This document shows, piece by piece, positions 1,018-16,182 of a stretch of 41,432 nucleotides of DNA; positions within the stretch are counted from its first letter, which is position 1; each line of letters begins with the position of its first letter. Below the pieces are notes generated by a model. It was not told the origin of the DNA, ran no database searches, and saw nothing but the letters and a program-made list of their open reading frames with translations. This DNA comes from Pseudomonadota bacterium (GTDB lineage: Bacteria; Pseudomonadota; Gammaproteobacteria; Burkholderiales; Thiobacillaceae). The DNA lies in the NCBI GenBank assembly GCA_030653935.1, contig JAURYL010000070.1, forward strand, positions 1 to 41,432. The letters are read 5' to 3'. Position numbers and translations under genes: made by a program.

Positions 1018-2487
1018 TCATTTCCGTCGAATTTTTCTCGCTACCCTTGCGGTGCGTAGTGGAGCCGCCTTGGTCACTGTCGTCTCGGGGGTGACGATAA
1101 CGGGCTCGGCGGCCGCTTGTTGCTCGTGCTTCGGCGCGGTCAGCGGCGTGTCGTGGTAGCCGTTGGCGAGGGCTTGCCGAAGTTTGCCGATCATGCTGAG
1201 CAGGCGCGCTTGGTCGAGGAGTTGCAGGTTGCGGTTGTCGATCACGTCTCCGATTGCCGAGAAGCGTTCGTTCTGAGCGGTGGCGACGTCCAGTAGGGAA
1301 CGTTTGCCGGCATCGAATTGCAGCCGGTAGGCGTGATAGACACGGCTTGTGGTTTCCACCCGCTCGACCAGTTCCGGCTGAATCACCCGCGCTTCGGCCA
1401 GTTCCTGATGCAGCGCGCCGAGGTCTCCGGAGAGGTTGATCCGCAGGGAGTCGGCGGCGGCGCGGGCGGCTTTGTGGCGTTCCACGGATTCGTCGACGCG
1501 GGCGAACGTCCTGCCGCCCAGGGGAATCTCCAGGTTGAGGGAGATCTGGTTGGAGCGTTGGGTATCGGTGACGGCGGCGGGGGAGATGTCGGCGTAGAGG
1601 CGGCGGTTCAGTTCCAGGTCGAGACTGGGCCAGTATGCGCCACGGGCGGCGTTAACCTCGGCGGCGCGGGCGGCGACACGTTTCATGCCGGCGCGCAGCT
1701 GTGGGTTGTCGTTCTCCAGCAGGGCTTGCAATTGTTCCAGGCCGCGTGCGTTGTCGGGGGCTTCCAGCCAGGGTGCCGAGAGGTTCGCCGGCGGCTGGCC
1801 GGTGAGTTGCTGGAAACGATACTCGCCGCCGCCCAGTTGCCCGCGCAACTGGCTGCGTTGTACGCGGATGCGGATCAGGTCGGATTCGATCTGGTCGAGG
1901 TCGGCGGGTGAGACGCGGCCGGCGTCGACCCGGTTTTTCACCGACGCGCGCAAGGCTTCAAATTCCTTGATCAGAGTATCGGCGACTTCGAGGCGTTGGC
2001 GCAGGCGAACCAGTTCGGCATAGCGTTCGGTGACTTCCAGGGCGATGCGTTCGTGGGCGTCGTCGAGATCGGCCACGGCCGCTTCCTGGTTCAGTCCGGC
2101 CGAACGCAGCCGGTTGCTGTCGATCCGGCCATTGAACAGATTCCAGCGGAGCGTCGCATTGCCACGCTTGGTGTCGCGACCGACGGAAACGCCGGTTTGT
2201 GAGTCCTGGGCATCGACTTGCCGGTAGTTGAGGCCGAGCGTGGGGTAAAAGTCCGAACGAACCTGGCGCATCTGCGCTTGCGAGGCTTCCAGCAATGCCT
2301 GCGAGGAGCGGATGTCGGGATGGCGTTGGAGTACCTGATCAACCACGGCGGGCAGGGGTGCGGCGCCGAGCTGGGCGCTGAGCAGCAAAGCGAGTAGCGG
2401 GGTTGCTCGCGCGGTCCGGGTGTGAGCGGGTGATGTGGCCGCAACCTGGCCTACGGATTGTTGCGCGGGGGGGCGGATGCGGCTCAC
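1018..2487 (-). CDS. TolC-family outer membrane protein of a type I secretion system
   Basis: The 489-residue protein forms the outer-membrane channel through which type I cargo leaves the cell. It resembles TolC/LapE-type factors: a hydrophobic export segment (LLALLLSAQLGAAP, about residues 31-44), then long amphipathic helices with the family pattern VLQRHPDIRSSQA, a WNLFNG motif, and two outer-membrane-efflux repeats. The chosen GTG start abuts the stop of the HlyD-type gene (TGAGTG), so translation is probably coupled. It is the last gene of the ABC-adaptor-channel operon 1018-5954. The first 30 or so residues are polar and uncharged for a signal peptide, so a start further in is possible. 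The C-terminal 50 residues are basic and Ala-rich (ends ARKIRRK), which is unusual but not diagnostic. Confidence 0.9.
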   Translation of the reverse strand: MSRIRPPAQQSVGQVAATSPAHTRTARATPLLALLLSAQLGAAPLPAVVDQVLQRHPDIRSSQALLEASQAQMRQVRSDFYPTLGLNYRQVDAQDSQTGVSVGRDTKRGNATLRWNLFNGRIDSNRLRSAGLNQEAAVADLDDAHERIALEVTERYAELVRLRQRLEVADTLIKEFEALRASVKNRVDAGRVSPADLDQIESDLIRIRVQRSQLRGQLGGGEYRFQQLTGQPPANLSAPWLEAPDNARGLEQLQALLENDNPQLRAGMKRVAARAAEVNAARGAYWPSLDLELNRRLYADISPAAVTDTQRSNQISLNLEIPLGGRTFARVDESVERHKAARAAADSLRINLSGDLGALHQELAEARVIQPELVERVETTSRVYHAYRLQFDAGKRSLLDVATAQNERFSAIGDVIDNRNLQLLDQARLLSMIGKLRQALANGYHDTPLTAPKHEQQAAAEPVIVTPETTVTKAAPLRTARVARKIRRK

Positions 2488-3783
2488 TCAGCGTTCCCTC
2501 AAGGACTTGTCCAGCGTCTTGACCACCGGCTTCAGCAGATATTCCATCAGGGTGCGTTTGCCAGTGAGGATGCTGGCATCGGCGCCCATGCCGGCGGAGA
2601 TGGTGAGGCGTTCGGCGGCCGCGCCGAGGTAATTGTGCTCGGTTTCCAGGATGACCTCGAAATAGGATTCCTGCCGTTCCTTGTCCATCAGCGCGTCGGC
2701 GCCGACCCGTTTCACCTTGCCAAGGAGGGTGCCGAAAATCGAGGAATCGTAGGCGCTGACGCGGATTTTCGCATCCTGGCCGGGGTGGATGAAGGCGATG
2801 TCGGCGGGTTTGACGCGGACGCTGATCAGCAGCTTGTCTTCCGCCGGTACCAGTTCCATCAGGGTCTGGCCCGCCTGCGCGATACCGCCGACGGTGGTGA
2901 GCAGCAAGCGGTTGACGATGCCATCCATGGGCGCGCGCAGCTCGCGGCGGTCTACCCGGTCGGCCTGGGCGGTGATCTGCTGCGAGGTGGTGGCCGCTTT
3001 CAGCTCCAGTTCGCTGCGTTCGCGGCTGGCGTCGGCGTTGAAACGCGAGTCGATTTCCGCCAGCCGGGCGCGGGCCTCCTGAACGGCGGCCTGCAAGCGC
3101 TGCACGGACACCCGCGCCGCTTCCAGGTCGCCCCGCAGACTCGATACCTTCTGTTTGGCGATCAGGTAGTCGGCGCGAGCGCCGGCGCCCTGCTTCATCA
3201 GCTTCTCTTCCATCGCCAGGCTTTCTCCGGCATCGATCAGCAGCACATCCATGGTCGCGATGCGGGATCGGGTCTCGGCCAGTTCCTGTTCACGCTGGAT
3301 GACCTGCTTTCTCACGGTTTCGCTGGCATCTTGCCGTTCCAGTTTGCGCGACTGCCACAAGGCTTGTTGCTCGGCCACGTGGCGTGGCGCGGCTTCCTTC
3401 AATTCCTGGGGAAAAACCGGCGCGCGTCCGAGGATTTCCGCGTTCAGCCTGACCAGTGCCGCGCGCACGCCCCACCAGGTATGGCGCGATTCGCCCAGAT
3501 CGGAATTGAACTGGAGGTTCTCCAGTCGCGCCAGGAGGTCTCCGCGTTTCACCGTCTGGCCTTCCTTGACCGCGATGGCCTGGATGATGCCGCCTTCCAT
3601 GCTCTGGATTTCCTGTACCCGGCTCGTGGGAATAACCTTGCCGCTGGCCTGCACGGCGATGTCCAGTTGCGCCCAGGACATCCAGGTTACGGCGAACAGC
3701 AGGAATAGAACGATGCCGCCGACCAGGGCAAACACCGCGCGGCGTGGGCCCCGATCATGATCGGGGTGTGGGATGTGGCTCAT
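2488..3783 (-). CDS. HlyD-family type I secretion periplasmic adaptor
   Basis: The 431-residue membrane-fusion protein links the inner-membrane ABC transporter to the TolC-type channel. It has one N-terminal membrane span (about residues 16-38, VFALVGGIVLFLLFAVTW). It then has a biotinyl-lipoyl-like half motif (GKVIPTSRVQEIQSMEGG), long coiled-coil hairpin helices rich in Glu, Arg and Ala (about 95-270), and a second lipoyl half with ELRAPMDGIVNRL. The C-terminal beta domain carries VRVKPADIAFIHPGQ. This order and length are standard for HlyD/LapC proteins. Its ATG overlaps the stop of the ABC gene by four bases (ATGA, 3780-3783), and its TGA touches the TolC-type start, so the three proteins are made together. 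Confidence 0.95.
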   Translation of the reverse strand: MSHIPHPDHDRGPRRAVFALVGGIVLFLLFAVTWMSWAQLDIAVQASGKVIPTSRVQEIQSMEGGIIQAIAVKEGQTVKRGDLLARLENLQFNSDLGESRHTWWGVRAALVRLNAEILGRAPVFPQELKEAAPRHVAEQQALWQSRKLERQDASETVRKQVIQREQELAETRSRIATMDVLLIDAGESLAMEEKLMKQGAGARADYLIAKQKVSSLRGDLEAARVSVQRLQAAVQEARARLAEIDSRFNADASRERSELELKAATTSQQITAQADRVDRRELRAPMDGIVNRLLLTTVGGIAQAGQTLMELVPAEDKLLISVRVKPADIAFIHPGQDAKIRVSAYDSSIFGTLLGKVKRVGADALMDKERQESYFEVILETEHNYLGAAAERLTISAGMGADASILTGKRTLMEYLLKPVVKTLDKSLRER

Positions 3784-5954
3784 GCCGCTTGCTCCATCAC
3801 GGTTTTCGCGCCCTGCAACTGCTTGAGCACCGCGTCGCGCGGGCCATCCAGCACCACGCGGCCCTGGTCCATCACCACCAGGCGGTCGACCAAGGGCAGC
3901 ATCGCGGTGCGGTGAGTCACCAGCAGCAGGGTCACGTTCTGCAGGCGGCGCAGGTTCTGGATGAGGGTCTGCTCCGTCGCCGGGTCCATCATGCTGGTTG
4001 GTTCATCCAGTAGCAGCACATTGGGTTGGTGCGCGACGCCGCGGGCGATGCACACCGCCTGGCGCTGACCGCCGGAAATCCGCTCGCCGCGTTCGCCGAC
4101 CTGGGTGCCGAGGCCGTTGGGCATCTGTGCCAGGGTTTCCTCAAGGCAGGCGAAGCGGATGGCGCCGAGCAGTTGCTCGTCGGCGATGTTGGTGGCGCCG
4201 AGCAGGATGTTTTCCCGGATATCACCATGGAACAACACGATGTCCTGCGGCACATAGCCGATGCGACGGCGCAGGCTCAGCGGTTCGATCTGGCCCACGG
4301 AAAGCCCGTCGATCAGCACCGTGCCTTGATCCGGGCCATAAAGATTGACCAGCATCCGCAACAAGGTGCTTTTGCCGGAGCCGATGCGGCCGATGAAACC
4401 GATCTTCTCGCCCGGCGCAATCTTCAGGTTGAGCCCCTTGAGCAGCGGGGGCGAATCCGGGTAGGCGAAGTGCACGTCGCGGAATTCGATCTGCCCACGC
4501 AGGCCGGAGACATGCAGGCTGTCCACCTGCTCATCCACCGGCGAGGCCATCACCTTGTCCAGTGCGGTGAGCGCCAGCTTGGTCTGCTCGTAGCGGATGA
4601 TCAGGCCGGCGATCTGCCCCGCCGGCGCCATCGCCCGCGCCGCCAGCATGGACACCGCGATCAACTGGCCCATGGTGAGTTGCCCCTCGGCGATCATCAG
4701 GGCGCCGAATACGATCAGCAGCACGGTGGTGAGGCCCGTGAGTGTGGCGGAGAGGTTGGTGCCGAAGGTCGACCATTCGCGCATGCGCACCGCGTTCTCG
4801 GAAATCTTTACCGTCAGCATTTCCCACTTGCGCCGCGCCCAGGCATCCGCGCCCAGGCATTTCACGGTATCCAGCCCGTTCATGGTCTCGAACAGATGGG
4901 CGGTGCGCTGCGCGGTTTCCTTCATGTTCTCGTTTAATACCTTGCCGATCGGACGGCGCAGCAGCAGGGCGGCAATCAGGATGATCGGCACCATCACCAG
5001 CGGCACCAGCGCCAGCCAGCCGCCCACCAGCGCGATCACCCCTATATAGAACAGCATGAAGGGCAGATCACCGAGCAGGGTGAGGGTGGTGGAGGTGAAG
5101 AACTCGCGCACCGATTCGAAATCGCGCACCACATTGGCCAGCACGCCGCCGGAAGCGGGACGCGAGGCGGCGCGCAATTTCAGGCTGTGCGCGAAGATGT
5201 GCGAGGACATGGCGACATCGGCGCGGCGCCCGGCCGCTTCCAATAGATAACTGCGCAACATCTTGATGAACAGGTCGAAAAAAGTGACCACCACCACCGC
5301 CGTGGTCAGCACCCAGAGGCTGTCGAGGGCGTTGTTCGGCACCACACGGTCGTACACCGCCATGGTGAAGAACGGAATCACCGCGCCGAACAGGTTGATC
5401 ACGGCGGTGGCCAGCAACGCCCAGCCGTAGATCGAACGATTCTCCAGAAACACATCCCAGAACCAGCGACGCGGATGCGCCTTCTGATAGAGCAGGCTGC
5501 GCGCGTCAAAGTAGAACACCGGGCGCGCGTAAAACCAGTCCGCGTCCTTGTATTCCGCCGCCACCGAGGCCAGCGGCAGCCAGGTGAGGCCGTCGATGCC
5601 GGCCTGGGCGCATTCCAGGCGGTCGCCCTCCTTCTTCAGAACCACCAACGCGTCACCCGCCGGCGTCATCGCCAACGCGGGCAGGGCGGATGCGCGCAAA
5701 TGACCGGGCTCGGCCTTGCATGGGGTCAGGCTTAGCCCCGCGCGCCCCGCGCACTCGGCGAGTTCTACGGCCGTGATCCTGCCCGCAGGCAAGGGCACCC
5801 CCGCCACGATCTGGTCCGGATCGATGCCGCGGCCAAAGAAGCGCGCAAGAAAGAGCAGCCGATCCAGTGTGGCGTCAACCGCCGGATTGGCTGGGTTTGC
5901 GGAGAGCGTGGCGGTTGAGTGCGTGGTCATGGAGCTGATTGACAAGGATTTCAT
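3780..5954 (-). CDS. Type I secretion system permease/ATPase (LssB/LapB type)
   Basis: The 724-residue ABC transporter powers export of unfolded cargo. The N-terminal 150 residues form a C39-peptidase-like domain. At the place where processing transporters carry the catalytic Cys the sequence reads RLLFLARFFGRG with no Cys, so it should bind cargo without cutting it, as in LapB- and HlyB-type exporters. A membrane domain follows (about 170-460; FFTMAVYDRVVPN is a family signature). The ATPase domain has Walker A GRIGSGKST (near 520), signature ISGGQRQ (near 622), Walker B VLLLDEPTS (near 645) and H-loop VTHR. It starts the operon and is transcribed away from the giant adhesin. No strong ribosome binding site precedes either ATG (5954 or 5930), so the exact start is uncertain. 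Confidence 0.95.
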   Translation of the reverse strand: MKSLSISSMTTHSTATLSANPANPAVDATLDRLLFLARFFGRGIDPDQIVAGVPLPAGRITAVELAECAGRAGLSLTPCKAEPGHLRASALPALAMTPAGDALVVLKKEGDRLECAQAGIDGLTWLPLASVAAEYKDADWFYARPVFYFDARSLLYQKAHPRRWFWDVFLENRSIYGWALLATAVINLFGAVIPFFTMAVYDRVVPNNALDSLWVLTTAVVVVTFFDLFIKMLRSYLLEAAGRRADVAMSSHIFAHSLKLRAASRPASGGVLANVVRDFESVREFFTSTTLTLLGDLPFMLFYIGVIALVGGWLALVPLVMVPIILIAALLLRRPIGKVLNENMKETAQRTAHLFETMNGLDTVKCLGADAWARRKWEMLTVKISENAVRMREWSTFGTNLSATLTGLTTVLLIVFGALMIAEGQLTMGQLIAVSMLAARAMAPAGQIAGLIIRYEQTKLALTALDKVMASPVDEQVDSLHVSGLRGQIEFRDVHFAYPDSPPLLKGLNLKIAPGEKIGFIGRIGSGKSTLLRMLVNLYGPDQGTVLIDGLSVGQIEPLSLRRRIGYVPQDIVLFHGDIRENILLGATNIADEQLLGAIRFACLEETLAQMPNGLGTQVGERGERISGGQRQAVCIARGVAHQPNVLLLDEPTSMMDPATEQTLIQNLRRLQNVTLLLVTHRTAMLPLVDRLVVMDQGRVVLDGPRDAVLKQLQGAKTVMEQAA

Positions 5955-6223
5955 GAAGCGGATTGGAGCGCGATAAGTGCGCCTGCAGGCGCATTAGAAC
6001 ATGTGGGCGTCAATGTGAGTGCCCACGCGCAAACCAGGCTGTGATGTCCCTCATACACATCAAGGATGGTCTTGTCGAATTCCTGGCAGTGGCGCCGAGA
6101 AATTGACATTATTCCGGCGAAAAAAGTTATCCACAGGAGAAGCGGTTGAATTCATAAGGAAAGAAGGTGTCGGGAATGTTTACACATTGAAAGCGATTCT
6201 CAACAACCTACATACGAAAAGGA

Positions 6224-6271: not shown

Positions 6272-6287
6272 TGGCATGCCCCTTGCA
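6272..6287 (+). promoter_or_regulatory. Sigma-54 (RpoN) promoter
   Basis: TGGCATGCCCCTTGCA matches the consensus TGGCACG-N4-TTGCW at all but one of the defined positions, with GG and GC separated by exactly ten bases. It would start transcription near 6298, about 45 bases before the ATG of the PEP-CTERM peptide and after no other gene. The AAGGGG ribosome binding site lies at 6333-6338. Confidence 0.85.
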
Positions 6288-6344
6288 GTTGGTGATTGCA
6301 GAAAGTTCTGCATTTTTTCACTTTTGCCATTTAAGGGGCCTTCC

Positions 6345-6491
6345 ATGCGCACTCTACTTTCCATTGCCGTGTTGCTATCTGTGGCGGCGCCGGCATTCGC
6401 CGATCCCAATTTTGTTCCCGAACCCGAATCGCTGTCCTTGCTCGCCATTGGCGCGCTTGGCCTTCTGGTTGCGCTTCGCCGCAAAAAGTAA
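6345..6491 (+). CDS. Minimal PEP-CTERM sorting-signal peptide (48 residues)
   Basis: The peptide has a textbook signal peptide ending in AAPAFA (residues 1-19). Only four residues (DPNF) come before a PEP-CTERM signal: VPEPESLSLL from residue 24, a hydrophobic span AIGALGLLVAL and a basic end RRKK. PEP-CTERM tails are recognised by exosortase, which cleaves at the PEP site and releases or transfers the N-terminal part. Here signal peptidase plus exosortase would leave a product of only about seven residues. AAGGGG six bases before the ATG supports the start, and a sigma-54 promoter upstream and a strong terminator downstream frame it as a complete gene. It may be a functional micro-substrate, a regulator or decoy of the sorting system, or the remainder of a larger PEP-CTERM gene after a clean internal deletion. 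No exosortase lies in the window. Confidence 0.85.
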   Translation: MRTLLSIAVLLSVAAPAFADPNFVPEPESLSLLAIGALGLLVALRRKK

Positions 6492-6495
6492 GTCC

Positions 6496-6525
6496 AAAGA
6501 GAGCCGGGTAAAACCGGCTCTCTTT
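6496..6525 (+). terminator. Rho-independent terminator of the PEP-CTERM gene
   Basis: AAAGAGAGCCGG and CCGGCTCTCTTT form a perfect 12-bp stem around GTAAAA, followed by GTATTTATATTT. It begins five bases after the stop codon. Confidence 0.9.
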
Positions 6526-6852
6526 GTATTTATATTTCGTGGCAAGCCGAAGTGTTTTTAACGTCAAGTCGATGTAAGGCGTTTTTTCGACTGATTTTTG
6601 GGTCACCTGGCCGCAGGTGCGTCGATTTGATTTGTCTTGAATCAATGTGTAAATGGCCTAGGTCATGTCTTTGACTCTCGATATGCAGGAACAGAATAGC
6701 GAACTGTCGCTGACTGTCTGTTTCGATAATAAAATCAATAACATAATTAATATATTTTCTCGCCATTGCCAGCGCGCTTATGGGCACGTAATGCGGGTGC
6801 CGGTATTCAGCCAAGTCCCTCTCTGTCATCGATAAATATCCAGGAGATAATC
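6526..6852. other. Upstream region of the giant surface-protein gene
   Basis: There is no gene here. It contains a perfect palindrome CACCTG-GCCG-CAGGTG at 6604-6619 and an AT-rich stretch at about 6724-6762 that would suit promoter opening or nucleoid-protein binding. TTGACT at 6671-6676 with a weak -10 (GAATAG) 17 bases on is the best sigma-70-like match but is poor. No sigma-54 site is present, so the adhesin is probably controlled separately from the PEP-CTERM peptide. Confidence 0.45.
6604..6619. promoter_or_regulatory. Perfect palindrome, possible operator upstream of the adhesin gene
   Basis: CACCTG-GCCG-CAGGTG is a 6+4+6 exact inverted repeat about 235 bases before the adhesin ATG. 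It has no T-run, so it is not an obvious terminator. A regulator site is possible but unsupported by any second copy. Confidence 0.3.
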
Positions 6853-7410
6853 ATGTCACAGCCTCCCGTTGTCACCATCAAGGTCAACTATCCTGGATCC
6901 ATCCCGGACCCGAGCCTGTTCGATATCCAGTTTCTGAGCAGTTCCGTCTTCGGCTTCAATCATTACGATGCATGGTGTGCCGACCGGGATATCGGCATCG
7001 ACCTCTATCCTCAGAGCGACGGAACCTATTCGAGCGGGAGCGTGCAGGCTTCTGTTTATTCGACCTATGAGTTGAGTATTCTGGGCGCCGCGATCCCCAC
7101 CATTGAAAACCCTGGCAATCTGGATGTAGTCAATTGGTTGCTGAACCAGCATTTCTCGGTCAATGGTTATACGCTTGGCGAAGTCCAGGCCGCCATCTGG
7201 ACATTGCTTGGCGACGATTACACCACCAGCACAATCATTTATCCCCGCGATCCTGTCAAGGTTGCCCAATTGGTCGCTCTGGCCAATCAGCACGATGGTT
7301 TTGTGCCGGATATAACCGACAACGATCCGAGCAACGACGATATCGCGGTGATGCTGTTCCCGCACTTGTCCAACGGCACGGCGCAACAACCGACGATCAT
7401 TCAGGTGAAA
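6853..7410 (+). other. Thioester-domain-like N-terminal region of the giant surface protein
   Basis: These 186 residues precede the repeats. Cys42 lies in AWCADRDIGID and Gln112 in EVQAAIW. Gram-positive thioester adhesin domains form a Cys-Gln thioester using a hydrophobic-Cys motif and a (T/hydrophobic)-Q-x-A-(hydrophobic)-W motif, both of which are matched. The 70-residue spacing is shorter than in streptococcal examples. Bond formation is inferred, not shown. Confidence 0.6.
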
Positions 7411-10400
7411 TCCGCCGCCTTGGGTGATTATGTCTGGGCGGACAGCAATGCCGATGGCGTCCAGGATGGCAATGAGTATGGCGTGCAGGGCGTCATCGTC
7501 AATTTGTGGCGTGATCTCGACGACGATGCAACCGTCGATGCCAATGAAATACTCGGTACCACCACGACCGATGCAACGGGCTATTACAAATTCTTTGGCC
7601 TGACTCCGGGTCTGCAATATCAACTGCAATTCATCAAGCCAGACAATTATTCCGGTTTTACGCTTCAGGATCAGGCAGCTGATACCACTGATAGCGACGC
7701 TAATGCGAATGGCATTACCGCCGCCGTCACGCTGGCGCCGGGTGAATTCAATACCAGCATCGACGCGGGTCTTGTCCAGTTTCAGCCGGCCAAGCTCTCC
7801 GGCTACGTCTACGAAGACAGCAACAACGACGGCAGCCGCGCGGGTGAAACCCCGATCCCCGGCACCACCGTCACCCTGAGCGGCACCGACGACCTCGGCA
7901 ACCCGGTGACCGCCAGCACCACCACCGACGCCAACGGCTACTACGAGTTTGTCGGCCTGCGTCCCGGCACCTACAGCGTTGCCGAGACCCAGCCCGCCGG
8001 CTATCTGGACGGCAAGGACACCGCTGGCAGCACAGGCGGCGTGGTCACGAACGACCTGCTCTCCAGCATCCCGCTCGCCGCCGGCCAGCACAGCGAAGAG
8101 AACAACTTTGGCGAACTGAAGCCCGCCAGCATTGCCGGCTTCGTCTACGGCGACGCCGATAACGACGGCATCAAGGATGCTGGCGAAACCGCGATCCCCG
8201 GCGCCACGGTCACCCTGACCGGCACCGACGACCTCGGCAACCCGGTCAGCGCCAGCACCACCACGGCCGCCGACGGCAGCTACAGCTTCGACAACCTGCG
8301 CCCTGGCAGCTACACGGTCACGGAAACCCAACCGGCCGGCTGGCTGGACGGCAAGGACACCGCCGGCAGCACCGGCGGCACGGTCAGCAACGACCAGATC
8401 GCCGCGATCACCCTCAACGCCGGCGACGCCAGCGTCAACAACAACTTCGGCGAACTGCTGGGCGCCAAGCTCTCTGGCTACGTCTACGAAGACAGCAACA
8501 ACGACGGCAGCCGCGCCGGCGAGACCCTGATCGCCAATGTCAGCATCACGCTGACTGGCACCGACGACCTGGGCAACCCGGTCACGGCCAGCACCACCAC
8601 CAACGCCGCCGGCTACTACGAATTCATTGGCCTGCGTCCCGGCAGCTACAGCGTCGCCGAGACCCAGCCCGCCGGCTACCTGGATGGCAAGGACACCATC
8701 GGCACCACCGGCGGCGGCGTCGCCAACGACCTGTTCAGCGCCATCCCGCTCGCCGCCGGCCAGCACAGCGCCGAGAACAACTTTGGCGAACTGAAGCCCG
8801 CCAGCATTGCCGGCTTCGTCTACGGCGACGCCGACAACGACGGCATCAAGGACGCGGGCGAGACCCCGATCCCCGGCGCCACGGTCACCCTGACCGGCAC
8901 CGACGATCTTGGCGCCCCGGTGAGCCTCACCACCACCACGGCCGCCGACGGCAGCTACAACTTCGGCAACCTGCGTCCCGGCAACTACACGGTCACTGAA
9001 ACCCAACCGGCCGGCTGGCTGGACGGCAAAGACACCGCCGGCGCGCCTGGCGGCGGCACGGCCGGCAACGACGTGATCAGCGCGATCACCCTCAACGCCG
9101 GCGACGCCAGCGTCAACAACAACTTCGGCGAACTGCTGGCGGCCAGCCTGGGCGACCGCCTCTGGGTGGACAGCAACGGTGATGGCATCCAGAACGACGG
9201 CGCCACCGGCATCAGTGGCCAGACCCTCACCCTGATCGGCGGCGGCGCCGACGGCCTGATCGCCACCACTGGCGACAACACCACGGCCACCACCACCACC
9301 GGCGCCGACGGCTACTACCAGTTCACCGGCCTCAACGTTGGCGAGGAATACCAGGTCCAGTTCAGCAAGCCCACCGGCACGGTGTACACCGGCCAGAACC
9401 TGGGCGGTGACGACACCCTGGACTCCGACGTCAACGCGGCGGGCCTGAGCCAGATCGTCACGCTCACTTCCGGTGAAAACAACCCGACGCTGGACGCCGG
9501 CGTCTACACCCCCGTCAGCATTGGCGACCGCGTCTGGGAAGACAGCAACGGCGACGGCGACCAGGACGGCGGCGAACCCGGCATCGGCGGCGTCAAGGTC
9601 ACCCTGATCAACTGCGCCACCAACGCCATCGTCGCCAGCACCACCACGGCCGACGGCACGGGCGCCGACCCGATGGGCTGGTACAACTTCGCCGGCGTCC
9701 CGCCCGGCACCTACCACGTCGTGTTCGAGACCCCGAGCGGCTACGTCGCGACCACCGCCAACGTTGGCGGTGATGACAGCACCGACAGCGACGCCGTGGG
9801 CGGCGTCACCGGCTGCTACACGCTCAATAGTGGCGACAGCAACACCACGGTCGACGCCGGCTTCCTGCGCACCGCCAGCCTGGGCGACCGCCTCTGGGTC
9901 GACAGCAACGGTGATGGCATCCAGAACGACGGCGCCACCGGCATCAGTGGCCAGACCATCACCCTGATCGGCGGCGGCGCCGACGGCCTGATCGCCACGG
10001 GCGGCGACAACACCACGGCCACCACCACAACCGGCGCCGACGGCTACTACCAGTTCACCGGCCTCAACGTCGGTGAGGAATACCAGGTCCAGTTCAGCAA
10101 GCCCATCGGCACGGTGTACACCGGCCAGAACCTGGGCGGTGACGACACCCTGGACTCCGACGTCAACGCGGCGGGCCTCTCGCAGATCGTCACGCTCAGC
10201 TCCGGCGAACACAACCCGACCCTCGACGCCGGCATCTACACCCCGGTCAGCATTGGCGACAAGGTCTGGGAAGACAGCAACGGCAACGGCAAGCAAGATG
10301 ATGGCGAGCCGGGCGTCGGCGGCGTCAAGGTCACGCTGGTCAACTGCGCGACCAATGCCATCGTAGCCACCACCACCACGGCGGACGGCACGGGCAGCAA

Positions 10401-13400
10401 CCCGATTGGCTACTACAACTTCGCCGGCGTCCCGCCCGGCACCTACCACGTCGTCTTTGAAACCCCGAACGGCTATGTGCAGACCACGGCCAATGTTGGC
10501 GGCAACGGTTTCGACACGACCGACAGCGACGCCGTCAATGGCGTCACCGGCTGCTACACCCTGAACAGTGGCGACACCAATACCACGGTGGACGCTGGCT
10601 TCCTGCGCAGCGCCAGCTTGGGCGACCGCCTCTGGGTCGACAGCAACGGTGACGGCATCCAGAACGACGGCGCCACCGGCATTGCCGGCCAGACCATCAC
10701 CCTGATCGGTGGCGGCGCCGACGGCCTGATCTCTACCCTCGGCGACAACACCACGGCGACCACTACAACCGGTGCCGACGGCTACTACCAGTTCACCGGT
10801 CTAAACGTCGGTGAGGAATACCAGGTCCAGTTCAGCAAGCCCACCGGCACGGTGTTCACCGGCCAGAACCTGGGCGGCGACGACACGCTCGACTCCGACG
10901 TCAACGCGCTGGGTTTGTCGCAGATCGTCACGCTCAGCTCCGGTGAGCACAACCCGACCCTCGACGCCGGCATCTACGTGCCCAATATCGGCATCGATAT
11001 CGAAAAATATGTGCGCGGCGAATACACGAACAGCAGCAATGAGGGCGGCGAGGGCCTGACCCCGGGCTACTGGAAAAACCATACTTCCGGCAAGAAAGGC
11101 CAGCCCAGCGAATGGGTCAAGACCGGCTTCAGCCCGAGCGACAGCTATGAGTCGATTTTCGGTGTCGATGTGCCGGGTAACCCGACCCTGCTGGATGCGC
11201 TGAAAGCCAAGGGGGGTGGCGTCAATGCCTTGATGCGCCACTCCACGGCGGCGCTGCTGAACGCCTCTCATGGCTATGTCGACTATCAGTACAGCGCGGC
11301 CGAAGTCATCGCCATGACCCAAGCGGCGATTGCCGGCGCCGATTACGAGCCGACCAAGGACCTGTTCGATCACCAGAACAACATGGGCGCCGACCTGACC
11401 ACGCTGGCGACGACGACGACAACCGTCGTCACCGACTGGTTCGACGCGGATACACCGACCGGCCCGTACATCCCCGTCGGTGGCGTGGCGCAGTTCAAGT
11501 ACGAAATCACCAATACCGGCTCGGTTGCCCTGAGCAACATCCAGGTGATTGATGACCGGATCGCCAGCCTCATCTTTGTCGGGGGCGATACCGACAACGA
11601 CGGCATGCTCGATGTCGATGAAACCTGGACCTATCTCGCCAGTGAGTTCGTGACGATGGCGGGCCTGCACACCAATATCGGCACGGTGACCGGCTTCGAC
11701 GCCAACACCGGCAGCATCGTCTCCGATTCGGACGCGGCGAATTACACCACCAGTGAGCTGATCGCCAGCATCGGCGACCGCGTCTGGCTGGACGCCAATG
11801 CCAACGGCATCCAGGATCTCGGCGAGGAAGGCATCGAGGGTGTTGCCGTGAATCTGCTCGACTCGCTTGGCGCGCTCATCGCCAGCACGGTGACCGATAC
11901 TGATGGCGAGTACCTGTTCGATGACCTGCCTCCCGGTGATTACATCGTGGAAGTGATCACGCCCACGGCTTACTTCGTTACGCAGAAGGATGCCGGCAGC
12001 AATGATGCCAAGGACAGCGACATCGACCCGCTGACCGGCAGGACCATCGTCACCACCCTGAGTGGCGGCGAATACGACATGACCTGGGACGCCGGCCTCT
12101 ACCAGAAGGCTTCCATCGGCGACAAGGTCTGGCTCGACTGCAATGCCAATGGCATCCAGGATGCAAACGAAATCGGCCTTTCCGGTGTCACGGTGAAACT
12201 GCTGAGCGGCACCGGCGCGGAACTGGCGACGACCACGACCGACTTCCAGGGTAACTACCTGTTCAACAACCTCGTTCCGGGTGATTACGCCATTCAGGTG
12301 ATCGCACCCACGGGCTACGGCTATACCGCCAGGGACCAGGGCGGCGACGACACGCGGGATTCCGACGTTGACGCCAGCACCGGCAAGACCATCACCACCA
12401 CGCTGACTTCCGGCGAGAACGACCTGTCCTGGGATGCCGGACTGACCACGGTCGGCGCCTGCGTCGACATGGTGTTTAGTGGCAGCAGCGCGACCGACGG
12501 CAGCGACGGCAATATTCGCACCTACAGCCAGAACGGCCTCTCGGTGAACGTCAGTGCCTTCAGCCGTGACAAGAGCACGGGCGCCTGGGCGGATGCCTGG
12601 CTGGGCACCTATGGCGGCGGTCTCGGCGTGACCGACAGCAGCGAAGGCAGCGGCAGCGGCAACACCCATACCGTCGACAACGTCGGTGGCCGCGACAACT
12701 ACGTGATGTTCGAGTTCAGCCAGTTCGTGATGCTGGACAAGGCCTACCTGGGCTACGTGGTTGGCGACAGCGACATGCAGCTGTGGATCGGCAACTTCAA
12801 CACGCCCTTCACCAGCCACATCGGCCTGAACGATGCCGTGTTGTCGCAGATGGGCTTCATGGAAGTGAACACCACCACTTTGTCCTCCGCGCGCTGGGCC
12901 GACCTCAACGCGGGCGAGTACCTCGGCAACGTCATCGTCATGGCCGCCGACACCACCGACATGTCGCCGGAGGACTACTTCAAGATCCAGACGCTGTCGG
13001 TCTGCACCCCGGCTTGTGGCCTCAATGCCAGCATTGGCGACAAGGTCTGGCTGGATGCCAATGCCAACGGCATCCAGGACGCGGGTGAAGCCGGCCTCAG
13101 TGGCGTCAGCGTCAAGCTCCTGAACAGCGCCGGCGCGGTTGTGAGCACCACCACCACGGATGCCAACGGCAACTACCTGTTCAGCAACCTCACCCCGGGC
13201 GACTACGCCGTGCAGGTCATGGCGCCCAATGGCTACCTGATTTCGGCGAAGGATCAGGGCGGCAACGATGCCACCGATTCCGACTTCGACCCGACCACCG
13301 GCAAGACCACGCTGACCACCCTCACCGGTGGCGAGAATGACCTGTCCTGGGATGCGGGCTTGTACCAACTGGCTTCCATCGGCGACAAGGTCTGGCTGGA

Positions 13401-16182
13401 CAGCAACAAGAACGGTATTCAGGACGCGGGCGAAACAGGGCTGAGCGGCGTCACCGTCAACCTGTTGAACGCGTCCGGCGCGGTCGTGGCCACCGCCACC
13501 ACCAATACCAGCGGCAACTACCTGTTCAGCAACCTGGCCCCCGGCGACTATGCCATTCAGGTCGTCGCCCCCAATGGCTACGCCTTCTCGGCGAAGGATC
13601 AAGGCGGCAACGACGCGCTGGATTCCGATGTCGATGGTGTGACCGGCAGGACCATCACCACCACGCTGACTTCCGGTGAGAACGACCTGAGCTGGGATGC
13701 CGGCCTCTACCTGAACAAGGCGCGCATCGGCGACACCGTCTGGGAAGACCTGAACTACAACGGCATCCAGGATGCCGGTGAAGCGGGCATCGCCAACGTC
13801 ACCGTCAAGTTGCAGAACTCCTCCGGCACGACGCTGCAAACCAAGACCACGGACGCCAACGGCAATTACTTCTTTGATGTCGATGCCGGCACTTACCGGG
13901 TACAGATGGTCAAGCCTACTGGCTACTTCATCACCAAGCAGGACCAGGGCGGCAACGACGGCGTCGATTCTGACATCAACAGTTCCGGTATCAGCGGCCT
14001 CTATACCGTGAGCGCCGGCCAGGAAAACCTGACCGTGGACGGTGGCCTGTACAAGAAGGCCTCGATTGGTGACAAGGTGTGGCTGGATGCCAACGGCAAC
14101 GGCGTTCAGGATGCGGGCGAAGCGGGCCTCAGTGGCGTCAGCGTCAAGCTGCTCAATAGCGCGGGCACGACCTTGTCCACGACCACGACCGATGCCAATG
14201 GCAATTACCTGTTCAGCAACCTCAACCCCGGCGACTATGCCGTGCAGTTGGTCGCGCCTAGCGGCTACGTCTTCACCGGCAAGGACCTGGGCGGCAACGA
14301 CGCTACCGACTCCGACTTCGACCCGGCTACCGGCAAGACGGTGCTGACCAGCCTGACTTCCGGCGAGAACGATCTGAGCTGGGACGCGGGCCTCTACCAG
14401 AAGGCTTCCATCGGCGACAAAGTTTGGCTGGATAGCAACAAGAACGGTATCCAGGATTCCGGTGAGGCCGGCATGAGCGGCGTCAGCGTCAACCTGCTGA
14501 ATGCGGCCGGCGTTGTCGTGGCCACCGCCACCACCAATGCCAGCGGCAACTACCTGTTCAGCAACCTGGCCCCCGGCGATTACGCCATTCAGGTCGTCGC
14601 CCCCAACGGCTACGCCTTCTCGGCGAAGGATCAAGGCGGCAACGATGCGCTGGATTCCGACGTCGATAGCGTGACCGGCAAGACGGTGCTGACCAGCCTG
14701 ACCTCCGGCGAGAACGATCTCTCTTGGGATGCGGGCCTCTATCTGAACAAGGCGCGCATCGGCGATACCGTCTGGGAAGACATGAACTACAACGGCATCC
14801 AGGATGCCGGTGAGGCGGGCATCGTCAACGTCAAGGTTTACCTGCGCAGCACGGCGGGCACGATCTTGCAGACCACCTACACCGATACCAACGGCAAATA
14901 CGGTTTTGATGTGGATGCCGGCACCTACCAGGTGCAGGTGGTCAGACCCAGCGGCTACTTTGCCACCAAGCAGGATCAGGGCAGCAACGATGGCTCCGAT
15001 TCCGACATCAACAGCTCGGGTTACACCGGCCTCTACACGGTCACCACCGGCCAGCAGAACCTGACCGTCGACGGTGGCCTGTACCGGAAGGCGAGCGTCG
15101 GCGACAAGGTGTGGGACGACATGAACCACAACGGTTTGCAGGATGCCAACGAGCCGGGCATTGCCGGCATCAAGATCACCCTGAAGACCTCGTCGGGGTC
15201 CACCGTCGCCAGCACCACCACGAACAGCACCGGCAACTACAACTTCGCCAACCTGAATCCGGGTGACTACTACCTGGTGTTCGATAAGACCAACGTCATG
15301 CACTACAACTATGGCGCTTGGTACAACATGAACGATTGGAAGTGGGCGGTGAAGGATGTCGGCAGCAACGACAGCATCGATTCCGACGTGACCGGCGATG
15401 GCAAATCGAAGACCAACGTCACCCAGACCAGCGTCTTCAATCTTGAGTCCGGCGAGAACGACATGAGCTGGGATGCGGGCATCACCCCCATCGCCATCGA
15501 CCTCAACGGTGACGGCATCCAGACCATTTCCCGCGCCAACGCCGGCGGCAGCTTCGATCTGCTCGGCACCGGCAAGGCGATCCAGTCCGGCTGGTTGTCC
15601 GGTGAAGACGGTTTCCTGGCGTTCGACCGCAACGGCAACGGTCGCATCGACGACATCAGCGAACTGTTCGGTGGCTACAACAAGGGTGATGGCTACGCCA
15701 AACTCGCCGCCTTCGACAGCAATGGCGACGGCGTGGTGGATGCCAACGACGCCGCTTTCGCCGATCTGCGCGTGTGGAAGGATGGCAACGGTAATCACCA
15801 GACCGACGAGGGTGAACTGCTGACCCTGGCCGAAGCCGGCGTCGCCAGCCTCAGCCTGGCCTACCAGGCCCTGCCGCTGATGGACGGCAACGGCAACCTG
15901 CACCTGGAGCGCGGCAGCGCGACGATGGCGGATGGCAGCGAGGTCGACATGACCGACGTCTACTTCGGTATCGCCGCCGCCGATGCGGCCGACGCCGGCA
16001 TCGAACTGCCCAACCTGGCGGACCTGCTGTCCGACAGCGGCAGCCTCGATGGGCTGGTGGGTAGCGCGGCGCCGATGCTGGCACCGGTCGACTACGCCGC
16101 CAACGATGCCTGTGGCGGCAGTGGGCTGGAGGCCATGAAGCAGCTCGCCGACCTGATCGATCAGCAGGCGGCTTATGCCTGA
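6853..16182 (+). CDS. Giant type I-secreted SdrD-B-repeat surface protein (3109 residues)
   Basis: AGGAGA a few bases before ATG 6853 fixes the start, which gives no signal peptide, as expected for type I cargo next to its exporter. The N-terminal domain (about 1-185) has AWCAD (Cys42) and EVQAAIW (Gln112), resembling thioester (TQXA/TED) adhesion domains. Nineteen SdrD-B-like modules follow, each opening like SIGDKVWLDANANGIQDAGE, at residues 189, 313, 425, 538, 650, 764, 888, 1008, 1132, 1254, 1638, 1753, 2059, 2174, 2290, 2403, 2518, 2634 and 2747. After module 10 comes a GLTPGYWKNH domain (from about 1402) and a DUF11-like domain (about 1530-1636). After module 12 comes a domain like exosortase-dependent surface proteins (about 1867-2056). 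The tail (about 2880-3109) has EF-hand-like loops (DLNGDGIQT, DRNGNGRIDD, DSNGDGVVDAND). Classical RTX nonapeptides are absent. The role is probably adhesion or matrix formation. Confidence 0.9.
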   Translation: MSQPPVVTIKVNYPGSIPDPSLFDIQFLSSSVFGFNHYDAWCADRDIGIDLYPQSDGTYSSGSVQASVYSTYELSILGAAIPTIENPGNLDVVNWLLNQHFSVNGYTLGEVQAAIWTLLGDDYTTSTIIYPRDPVKVAQLVALANQHDGFVPDITDNDPSNDDIAVMLFPHLSNGTAQQPTIIQVKSAALGDYVWADSNADGVQDGNEYGVQGVIVNLWRDLDDDATVDANEILGTTTTDATGYYKFFGLTPGLQYQLQFIKPDNYSGFTLQDQAADTTDSDANANGITAAVTLAPGEFNTSIDAGLVQFQPAKLSGYVYEDSNNDGSRAGETPIPGTTVTLSGTDDLGNPVTASTTTDANGYYEFVGLRPGTYSVAETQPAGYLDGKDTAGSTGGVVTNDLLSSIPLAAGQHSEENNFGELKPASIAGFVYGDADNDGIKDAGETAIPGATVTLTGTDDLGNPVSASTTTAADGSYSFDNLRPGSYTVTETQPAGWLDGKDTAGSTGGTVSNDQIAAITLNAGDASVNNNFGELLGAKLSGYVYEDSNNDGSRAGETLIANVSITLTGTDDLGNPVTASTTTNAAGYYEFIGLRPGSYSVAETQPAGYLDGKDTIGTTGGGVANDLFSAIPLAAGQHSAENNFGELKPASIAGFVYGDADNDGIKDAGETPIPGATVTLTGTDDLGAPVSLTTTTAADGSYNFGNLRPGNYTVTETQPAGWLDGKDTAGAPGGGTAGNDVISAITLNAGDASVNNNFGELLAASLGDRLWVDSNGDGIQNDGATGISGQTLTLIGGGADGLIATTGDNTTATTTTGADGYYQFTGLNVGEEYQVQFSKPTGTVYTGQNLGGDDTLDSDVNAAGLSQIVTLTSGENNPTLDAGVYTPVSIGDRVWEDSNGDGDQDGGEPGIGGVKVTLINCATNAIVASTTTADGTGADPMGWYNFAGVPPGTYHVVFETPSGYVATTANVGGDDSTDSDAVGGVTGCYTLNSGDSNTTVDAGFLRTASLGDRLWVDSNGDGIQNDGATGISGQTITLIGGGADGLIATGGDNTTATTTTGADGYYQFTGLNVGEEYQVQFSKPIGTVYTGQNLGGDDTLDSDVNAAGLSQIVTLSSGEHNPTLDAGIYTPVSIGDKVWEDSNGNGKQDDGEPGVGGVKVTLVNCATNAIVATTTTADGTGSNPIGYYNFAGVPPGTYHVVFETPNGYVQTTANVGGNGFDTTDSDAVNGVTGCYTLNSGDTNTTVDAGFLRSASLGDRLWVDSNGDGIQNDGATGIAGQTITLIGGGADGLISTLGDNTTATTTTGADGYYQFTGLNVGEEYQVQFSKPTGTVFTGQNLGGDDTLDSDVNALGLSQIVTLSSGEHNPTLDAGIYVPNIGIDIEKYVRGEYTNSSNEGGEGLTPGYWKNHTSGKKGQPSEWVKTGFSPSDSYESIFGVDVPGNPTLLDALKAKGGGVNALMRHSTAALLNASHGYVDYQYSAAEVIAMTQAAIAGADYEPTKDLFDHQNNMGADLTTLATTTTTVVTDWFDADTPTGPYIPVGGVAQFKYEITNTGSVALSNIQVIDDRIASLIFVGGDTDNDGMLDVDETWTYLASEFVTMAGLHTNIGTVTGFDANTGSIVSDSDAANYTTSELIASIGDRVWLDANANGIQDLGEEGIEGVAVNLLDSLGALIASTVTDTDGEYLFDDLPPGDYIVEVITPTAYFVTQKDAGSNDAKDSDIDPLTGRTIVTTLSGGEYDMTWDAGLYQKASIGDKVWLDCNANGIQDANEIGLSGVTVKLLSGTGAELATTTTDFQGNYLFNNLVPGDYAIQVIAPTGYGYTARDQGGDDTRDSDVDASTGKTITTTLTSGENDLSWDAGLTTVGACVDMVFSGSSATDGSDGNIRTYSQNGLSVNVSAFSRDKSTGAWADAWLGTYGGGLGVTDSSEGSGSGNTHTVDNVGGRDNYVMFEFSQFVMLDKAYLGYVVGDSDMQLWIGNFNTPFTSHIGLNDAVLSQMGFMEVNTTTLSSARWADLNAGEYLGNVIVMAADTTDMSPEDYFKIQTLSVCTPACGLNASIGDKVWLDANANGIQDAGEAGLSGVSVKLLNSAGAVVSTTTTDANGNYLFSNLTPGDYAVQVMAPNGYLISAKDQGGNDATDSDFDPTTGKTTLTTLTGGENDLSWDAGLYQLASIGDKVWLDSNKNGIQDAGETGLSGVTVNLLNASGAVVATATTNTSGNYLFSNLAPGDYAIQVVAPNGYAFSAKDQGGNDALDSDVDGVTGRTITTTLTSGENDLSWDAGLYLNKARIGDTVWEDLNYNGIQDAGEAGIANVTVKLQNSSGTTLQTKTTDANGNYFFDVDAGTYRVQMVKPTGYFITKQDQGGNDGVDSDINSSGISGLYTVSAGQENLTVDGGLYKKASIGDKVWLDANGNGVQDAGEAGLSGVSVKLLNSAGTTLSTTTTDANGNYLFSNLNPGDYAVQLVAPSGYVFTGKDLGGNDATDSDFDPATGKTVLTSLTSGENDLSWDAGLYQKASIGDKVWLDSNKNGIQDSGEAGMSGVSVNLLNAAGVVVATATTNASGNYLFSNLAPGDYAIQVVAPNGYAFSAKDQGGNDALDSDVDSVTGKTVLTSLTSGENDLSWDAGLYLNKARIGDTVWEDMNYNGIQDAGEAGIVNVKVYLRSTAGTILQTTYTDTNGKYGFDVDAGTYQVQVVRPSGYFATKQDQGSNDGSDSDINSSGYTGLYTVTTGQQNLTVDGGLYRKASVGDKVWDDMNHNGLQDANEPGIAGIKITLKTSSGSTVASTTTNSTGNYNFANLNPGDYYLVFDKTNVMHYNYGAWYNMNDWKWAVKDVGSNDSIDSDVTGDGKSKTNVTQTSVFNLESGENDMSWDAGITPIAIDLNGDGIQTISRANAGGSFDLLGTGKAIQSGWLSGEDGFLAFDRNGNGRIDDISELFGGYNKGDGYAKLAAFDSNGDGVVDANDAAFADLRVWKDGNGNHQTDEGELLTLAEAGVASLSLAYQALPLMDGNGNLHLERGSATMADGSEVDMTDVYFGIAAADAADAGIELPNLADLLSDSGSLDGLVGSAAPMLAPVDYAANDACGGSGLEAMKQLADLIDQQAAYA
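7789..9141 (+). repeat. Tandem two-module repeat, 675-bp period, two copies
   Basis: Modules 2-3 and 4-5 of the surface protein (KLSGYVYEDSNNDG then SIAGFVYGDADNDG) recur exactly 675 bases apart, with long runs of identical DNA. This points to a recent unit duplication or ongoing gene conversion. Confidence 0.85.
9142..10980 (+). repeat. Tandem two-module repeat, 732-738-bp period, two and a half copies
   Basis: Modules 6-7, 8-9 and the single module 10 alternate SLGDRLWVDSNGDG and SIGD(R/K)VWEDSNG types. Starts at 9142, 9874 and 10612 give periods of 732 and 738. The six-base difference reflects one small in-frame indel. Confidence 0.85.
13027..15090 (+). repeat. Tandem three-module repeat, exact 1032-bp period, two copies
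   Basis: Modules 13-14-15 and 16-17-18 start at 13027/14059, 13372/14404 and 13720/14752, each exactly 1032 bases (344 codons) apart. The third module of each copy (RIGDTVWED) is shorter and divergent but is conserved between copies, so the whole triplet was duplicated as one block. Confidence 0.9.

Follow-up and report, generated by a model that had tools for sequence, protein, structure and literature searches.

What can a PEP-CTERM protein do that has almost no body between its two sorting signals? The question is raised by a gene at positions 6345-6491 of a 41,432-nucleotide stretch of DNA (here called the window) from a Pseudomonadota bacterium of the Thiobacillaceae (GenBank assembly GCA_030653935.1, contig JAURYL010000070.1), whose 48-residue product we refer to as the mini protein. 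Our answer, to which we assign a probability of about 0.55, is that it is a minimal exosortase substrate in the PrsK/PrsR-sigma-54 regulon and a dedicated companion of the adjoining giant adhesin-like protein. The sequence basis of this reading consists of a conserved coding gene, a regulon-type promoter, repeated synteny, and the presence of one exosortase and one PrsR in the genome. A preliminary description of the locus missed the linkage of the mini gene to the giant with its thioester-domain-like N-terminus. As far as can be read from the sequences, an almost bodiless PEP-CTERM substrate tied to such a giant is what is new here. The gene is made up as follows:

6345..6491, plus strand: mini PEP-CTERM gene, 48 amino acids (frame in the sequence, PF07589 and TIGR02595 scores, orthologues, purifying selection)
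6345..6401, plus strand: signal peptide, residues 1-19, with AFA site (read by eye; 16/19 identical in G006 and in G019)
6414..6488, plus strand: PEP-CTERM sorting tail (PF07589 over cut-off; identity 25/25 in G006, 23/25 in G019)
6333..6338, plus strand: ribosome binding site AAGGGG (sequence)

The product consists of MRTLLSIAVLLSVAAPAFA (signal peptide), the joint DPNF and VPEPESLSLLAIGALGLLVALRRKK (PEP-CTERM tail). The tail scored 27.3 bits against PF07589 (cut-off 20.7) and 26.1 bits against TIGR02595 (cut-off 16); with the frame present and both curated cut-offs passed, the preliminary description of a signal peptide joined through four residues to a PEP-CTERM signal was correct. The N-terminus (MRTLL...AFA) is signal-peptide-like by eye and conserved across orthologues. 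On the same by-eye reading, signal peptidase may cleave at AFA; the remnant of about seven residues that would be left after both cleavages depends on an assumed exosortase cut site. With a putative signal peptide followed by a PEP motif, a transmembrane helix and a basic end, and with a sigma-54 site and upstream box before its gene, the mini protein resembles the PEP-CTERM/exosortase substrates (TIGR02595, PF07589; PMC1569441), but it differs in having almost no body between the two signals, whereas 28 other PEP-CTERM-type frames from four genomes of the genus encode 151-390 amino acids (the 151-residue frame being an apparent out-of-frame artefact).

A search of 101 related genomes, the bacterium's own included, recovered full-length relatives within the genus in G006 (90% identity), G019 (85%), G002 (67%) and G022 (44%), and weaker ones in G057 (57%) and in G010 and G025 (both 47%). 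The matches listed in a scan of one genome per species, at least four in number, included a Thauera metagenome-assembled genome (61%), Ca. Accumulibacter aalborgensis (67%) and a long protein (L072). Genomes of the genus generally carry PEP-CTERM proteins, and a close orthologue of the mini gene is present in at least 5 of 23 of them, each time at a giant-linked locus. Other short open frames were also among the genus matches listed.

Length differences between mini orthologues are whole codons. Nei-Gojobori counting was applied to six copies, those of G000 (the copy of the window), G006, G019, G002, G022 and Accumulibacter, but not to that of Thauera. Between G000 and G006, 29.5 of 41.8 synonymous sites and 8.5 of 102.2 nonsynonymous sites differ, a ratio of 0.04; the ratio was 0.04-0.27 in 10 of the 15 pairs, and synonymous distance was saturated in the other five. 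Identity to G000 was 16/19 in the signal peptide, 2/4 in the joint and 25/25 in the tail for G006, and 16/19, 2/4 and 23/25 for G019; the copy in G022 is much less similar to it (tail 9/25). One full-size PEP-CTERM orthologue shared by G000, G006 and G019 has 13-15/21 identical residues in the signal peptide and 20-23/25 in the tail; this single comparison suggests that the two signals of the mini protein are kept at least as well. By these counts, the mini gene is maintained under purifying selection on its amino-acid sequence. The earlier view of it as real, complete and maintained thus agrees with the orthologues at the equivalent place and with the mode of selection. A full-length PEP-CTERM gene at that place in relatives, which would have spoken for an isolated deletion, was not seen among the 12 syntenic copies read, all of which have 47-62 residues.

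The giant gene starts 361 bp downstream of the mini gene, and a type I secretion operon adjoins:

6853..16182, plus strand: giant protein of 3109 amino acids, with an N-terminal thioester-domain-like fold (about residues 1-187) and 19 SdrD_B repeats
3780..5954, minus strand, divergent: type I secretion ABC transporter (PF00005, PF00664)
2488..3783, minus strand: HlyD-type membrane fusion protein (PF13437)
1018..2487, minus strand: outer membrane efflux (TolC-type) protein (PF02321)

The linkage was surveyed with the N-terminal domain of the giant, not with the mini protein, as query. Matches were obtained in 7 of 117 family, 5 of 399 order, 4 of 369 class and 3 of 398 phylum genomes, in sets that overlap; at the order, class and phylum levels, where the giant alignment was used, at most the best 7 or 8 candidates per genome were scored, and in an order survey with the mini alignment at most the best 17, and both may undercount. 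At least 13 distinct loci resulted, and 10 of the 13 (10 of the 11 with equal layout) are immediately preceded by a mini gene in the same orientation. Nine of these encode a PEP mini protein (G000, G006, G019, G022, G002, G030, G378, G364, G630) and one, G075, a PIP variant. The ten genomes span five families, with G630 in another order. Two loci without an upstream mini gene have the domain in another setting: in a short protein that reads as Sec-exported (G603), and at the end, not at the start, of a long frame with repeats (G953, L136). From mini stop to giant start, the distance is 102-443 bp in 12 loci; these include Thauera and Accumulibacter, which were found by the mini protein itself and stand outside the count of 13. 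The idea that the mini protein is a detached tail of the giant was rejected: long proteins with PEP-CTERM ends in G001 (2008 amino acids) and G088 (2153 amino acids) are unlike the SdrD_B giant by eye, a comparison for which no search was made.

In the region 6853-7413 of the window, the giant, a proteobacterial protein, begins with a predicted thioester-domain-like fold. Its residues C42 and Q112 are invariant in 9/9 loci and, by prediction, could form a thioester bond; in 7/9 giant N-termini, Trp stands in place of [YFL] before the Cys. No signal peptide was seen by eye at the giant N-terminus. Sequence searches of the PDB gave no useful match. Type I secretion genes lie near the giant in six loci.

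Upstream of the mini gene are the two elements of its putative promoter:

6168..6184, plus strand: PrsR-type enhancer box TGTCGGGAATGTTTACA, of the Haft motif 1 type (sole pattern match on both strands of the window)
6272..6286, plus strand: sigma-54 site TGGCATGCCCCTTGC (-24/-12; sequence, with counterparts in syntenic loci)

The box pattern (TGTCG-N4-7-TT(T/A)AC) has a single match on the two strands of the window, at 6168, and this match forms the only box/sigma-54 pair. A relaxed sigma-54 pattern alone occurs nine times, so that a match to it means little by itself. Both the sigma-54 promoter proposed earlier and its predicted +1 at 6298 were recovered as sequence features. Haft 2006 describes a 17-nt motif ending in TTTACA, about 63 nt (32-92) before the -24/-12 site and upstream of 99 of 167 proteobacterial PEP-CTERM genes, with PrsR proposed as activator (PMC1569441). 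In the window, 87 bases separate the box from the site, within that range. Dependence of a PEP-CTERM gene on RpoN1 was shown for pepA of Aquincola (PMC9850573).

The strict sigma-54 pattern (TGGC-N7-TTGC) is present in 8 of 12 mini loci, 127 nt before the ATG in G075 and 66-94 nt before it in the other seven; three loci have a one-base variant, and none was found near the G378 mini gene. Among eight syntenic loci compared, one has a GGGC variant and the remaining seven TGGC-N7-TTGC. Nine of the 12 match the box pattern; G019 deviates from it at one base (TTCTTACA), and G364 and G378 have no box. From start to start, box and site are 79-105 nt apart in most mini loci, 180 nt in Thauera and 135 nt in G075; the stretch with the PIP variant in G075 (L128 1-1474) contains the box twice. 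A promoter special to the mini gene was rejected: of 26 other PEP-CTERM frames from G000, G006, G019 and G022, 16 are preceded by the same box at a distance of up to 350 nt (one frame per PEP-CTERM match, start codons set by rule, a subset of the PEP-CTERM genes of those genomes). Judged by its motifs, the mini promoter appears to be under the ordinary PrsR/sigma-54 control proposed for PEP-CTERM genes, with no sign of anything unusual. In the genome of the window, a single exosortase matched (TIGR02602, 249.2 bits, cut-off 105.55), a single PrsR passed its cut-off (735.6 bits against 502.6), and there are six PEP-CTERM matches over the cut-off, the mini protein included. Upstream of the box, at 6126-6135, the stretch GTTATCCACA is conserved in G000, G006, G019 and G022; we take it to be DnaA-box-like.

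Signal peptidase removes the signal peptides of Sec substrates, PEP-CTERM tails are regarded as signals for exosortase, and substrates of type I secretion leave the cell C-terminus first. On this background, the mini protein would be sent out by Sec, lose its signal peptide to signal peptidase and remain as a membrane-spanning stub of 29 residues, whose PEP motif would lie on the periplasmic side for exosortase to engage. Since the C-terminus goes out first, the thioester-like domain at the N-terminus of the giant would leave last and end up nearest the cell. The sorted stub, made in step with the giant, might then help to keep the adhesin at the cell surface or within the exopolysaccharide matrix, by holding, docking or displaying it there. 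Given the linkage, and selection on both signals and not on the joint, the companion role is the most economical reading. Its parts differ in strength: that the mini protein is a companion of the giant is quite probable, and that exosortase handles it is probable, but help in docking the giant at the surface is a tentative suggestion that we rate as doubtful. A bolder and rather improbable version would have exosortase attach the short head of the mini protein to a carrier, at the surface or of exopolysaccharide, while the cell-proximal thioester domain of the giant bonds to stub or carrier, giving a covalent anchoring in two parts; if true, two unrelated export routes would meet to anchor one adhesin in Gram-negative bacteria.

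Several observations weigh against the companion reading. The structure model of the thioester-like domain has a mean pLDDT of 66, and Foldseek alone gave no significant match for it (best thioester row, E 0.89). The threshold of Pfam TED (PF08341, E 0.001) was not reached; one of nine members matched, at E 0.014, which is why we speak of a thioester-domain-like fold and not of a member of Pfam TED. The 19.9-kb stretches from G378 and G075 showed no type I secretion genes like those of the window, nor did the stretches of G002, Thauera and Accumulibacter, and G004 has a giant and no mini gene. The mini tails of G378 (18.9 bits) and G075 (12.9 bits) fall below the PF07589 cut-off of 20.7, that of G022 is just at it, and G075 has PIP in place of PEP. 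Near its mini gene, G378 lacks both box and strict sigma-54 site, and G364 lacks the box.

There are also mini genes away from giants. In g6, another genus of the same family, those of G111, G117, G123 and G142 and one of two in G057 adjoin frames that we read by eye as ispH-, pilin- or PilY1-like, and no box-paired site lies upstream of them. The other G057 copy adjoins a transporter-like gene and is preceded by TTTACA and the relaxed site TGGAACAGGGATTGC, 87 nt before the ATG; G010 and G025 share a mini gene that stands before yet another gene. A further copy, in G146, lies elsewhere, with TTTACA and TGGCGCGTTGCTTGC. The second mini group, beside ispH-like or pilin/PilY1-like frames in another genus of the family, is represented by L074, L075, L076, L078 and L079. 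In G010 and G025 (L042, L044), which belong to different genera, flanking frames of equal start and length surround the common mini gene, and this likeness suggests recent transfer or assembly contamination. With the copies of g6, G146, G010 and G025 adjoining other genes, mini PEP-CTERM genes are, by their gene neighbourhoods, a wider format in which the giant-linked ones form the best supported group.

One alternative is a leader cistron, in which the short frame and a hairpin would set the transcription or translation that reaches the giant gene while the peptide itself matters little. It draws on the first of two hairpins at the locus:

6495..6526, plus strand: 13-bp hairpin after the stop codon, terminator-like with a broken T-run (folding, shuffles)
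6297..6312, plus strand: hairpin TGCAGAAAGTTCTGCA at the predicted transcript start (shuffle p 0.003)

None of 300 plain shuffles of the 60 post-stop bases folded as well as the first, which has 13 pairs. In the other mini loci, a post-stop hairpin was significant in 4/7 and not in 3/7, mostly without a T-run; with the window this makes 5/8 loci in which none of 300 shuffles was as stable, a point in favour of the leader cistron. The preliminary description spoke of a perfect terminator: the hairpin stood, but the T-run after it is interrupted (TATTTATATT) and three of the seven other loci have no significant counterpart. In the eight loci scanned, the stretch from mini to giant contains neither a box nor a strict sigma-54 site, and in G004 promoter-type signals precede the giant itself, both of which would suit a leader. 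Against it, what is under selection is the protein sequence, in which signal peptide and PEP tail are conserved, and the spacer, 102-443 bp long, does not align between loci. We regard a leader cistron as unlikely. An RNA element between mini and giant was rejected on the eight intergenic stretches, which do not align. The hairpin at +1, a candidate conserved element, reached p<=0.05 in no more than 4/8 mini loci, as compared with 2/7 control PEP-CTERM sigma-54 sites. Several relatives have hairpins of altered sequence at the place equivalent to the palindrome at 6297-6312.

Equally improbable in our view is a decoy or load sensor for exosortase, a cheap substrate that would compete with PEP-CTERM traffic or report on it. 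Such a role would be in keeping with the single exosortase found in the genome and with a box like that of the 16 of 26 larger PEP-CTERM frames. However, a general sensor would not need a place before one kind of giant gene, and the orthologues, in at least 5 of 23 genus genomes, always occupy the giant locus although PEP-CTERM proteins are general in the genus.

The anatomy would also permit the release of a short peptide from between the cuts of signal peptidase and exosortase, which could then be sensed. This peptide signal, suggested in the preliminary description, we hold to be very unlikely because the joint residues vary: they read DPNF, DLVF, DGNL, GPGGFNS, GPNDPVS and so on in different species, their number changes, and they agree in 0-2 of 4 positions in nine of ten genus pairs and in 3 of 7 in the tenth. 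The would-be signal is therefore the least conserved part of the protein, and signal peptide and tail are better kept. Debris, be it a PEP-CTERM gene that lost its middle by deletion or a frame open by chance, could appeal to the very small size and to the restriction of close orthologues to at least 5 of 23 genus genomes, but it is hardly credible in view of intact copies of 47-62 residues in five families, the ratios of 0.04-0.27 in 10 of 15 pairs, and the recurrent promoter type and place, and orthologues and purifying selection rule it out.

Two further known systems come close, one to the mini protein and one to the giant. With PepA of Aquincola, which acts in floc formation, it shares a PEP-CTERM tail, an RpoN-type promoter with upstream enhancer and a stem-loop before the next gene; pepA precedes prsT (PMC9850573), and the mini gene instead precedes an adhesin-like gene. 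Against floc_PepA (NF033554), the mini protein fails the full-length score (27.8 bits against 80), with a match to the tail only. The giant resembles the thioester-domain adhesins SfbI, Cpa and the TIE proteins, described from Gram-positive bacteria (PMC8092201), in its predicted fold, the invariant Cys and Gln, and the Ig-like repeats that follow. It differs in being proteobacterial, in the lack of a visible signal peptide, in the type I secretion genes nearby in six loci, and in the Trp before the Cys in 7/9. Among the papers listed from PubMed Central, which is mostly without subscription papers, none dealt in its title or abstract opening with a linkage between a mini PEP-CTERM protein and a giant of the thioester or SdrD_B kind.

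For the questions of what exosortase does to its substrates and what PEP-CTERM proteins are for, the mini protein, a natural substrate tied to one partner gene, offers a minimal test object: because it has almost no body, any phenotype would have to be due to its two sorting signals. Through it, the PEP-CTERM/exopolysaccharide system is connected with giant adhesin-like proteins that have genes for type I secretion in their vicinity, and the locus suggests that Proteobacteria living in wastewater flocs, Accumulibacter and Thauera among them, have adhesins of the thioester type.
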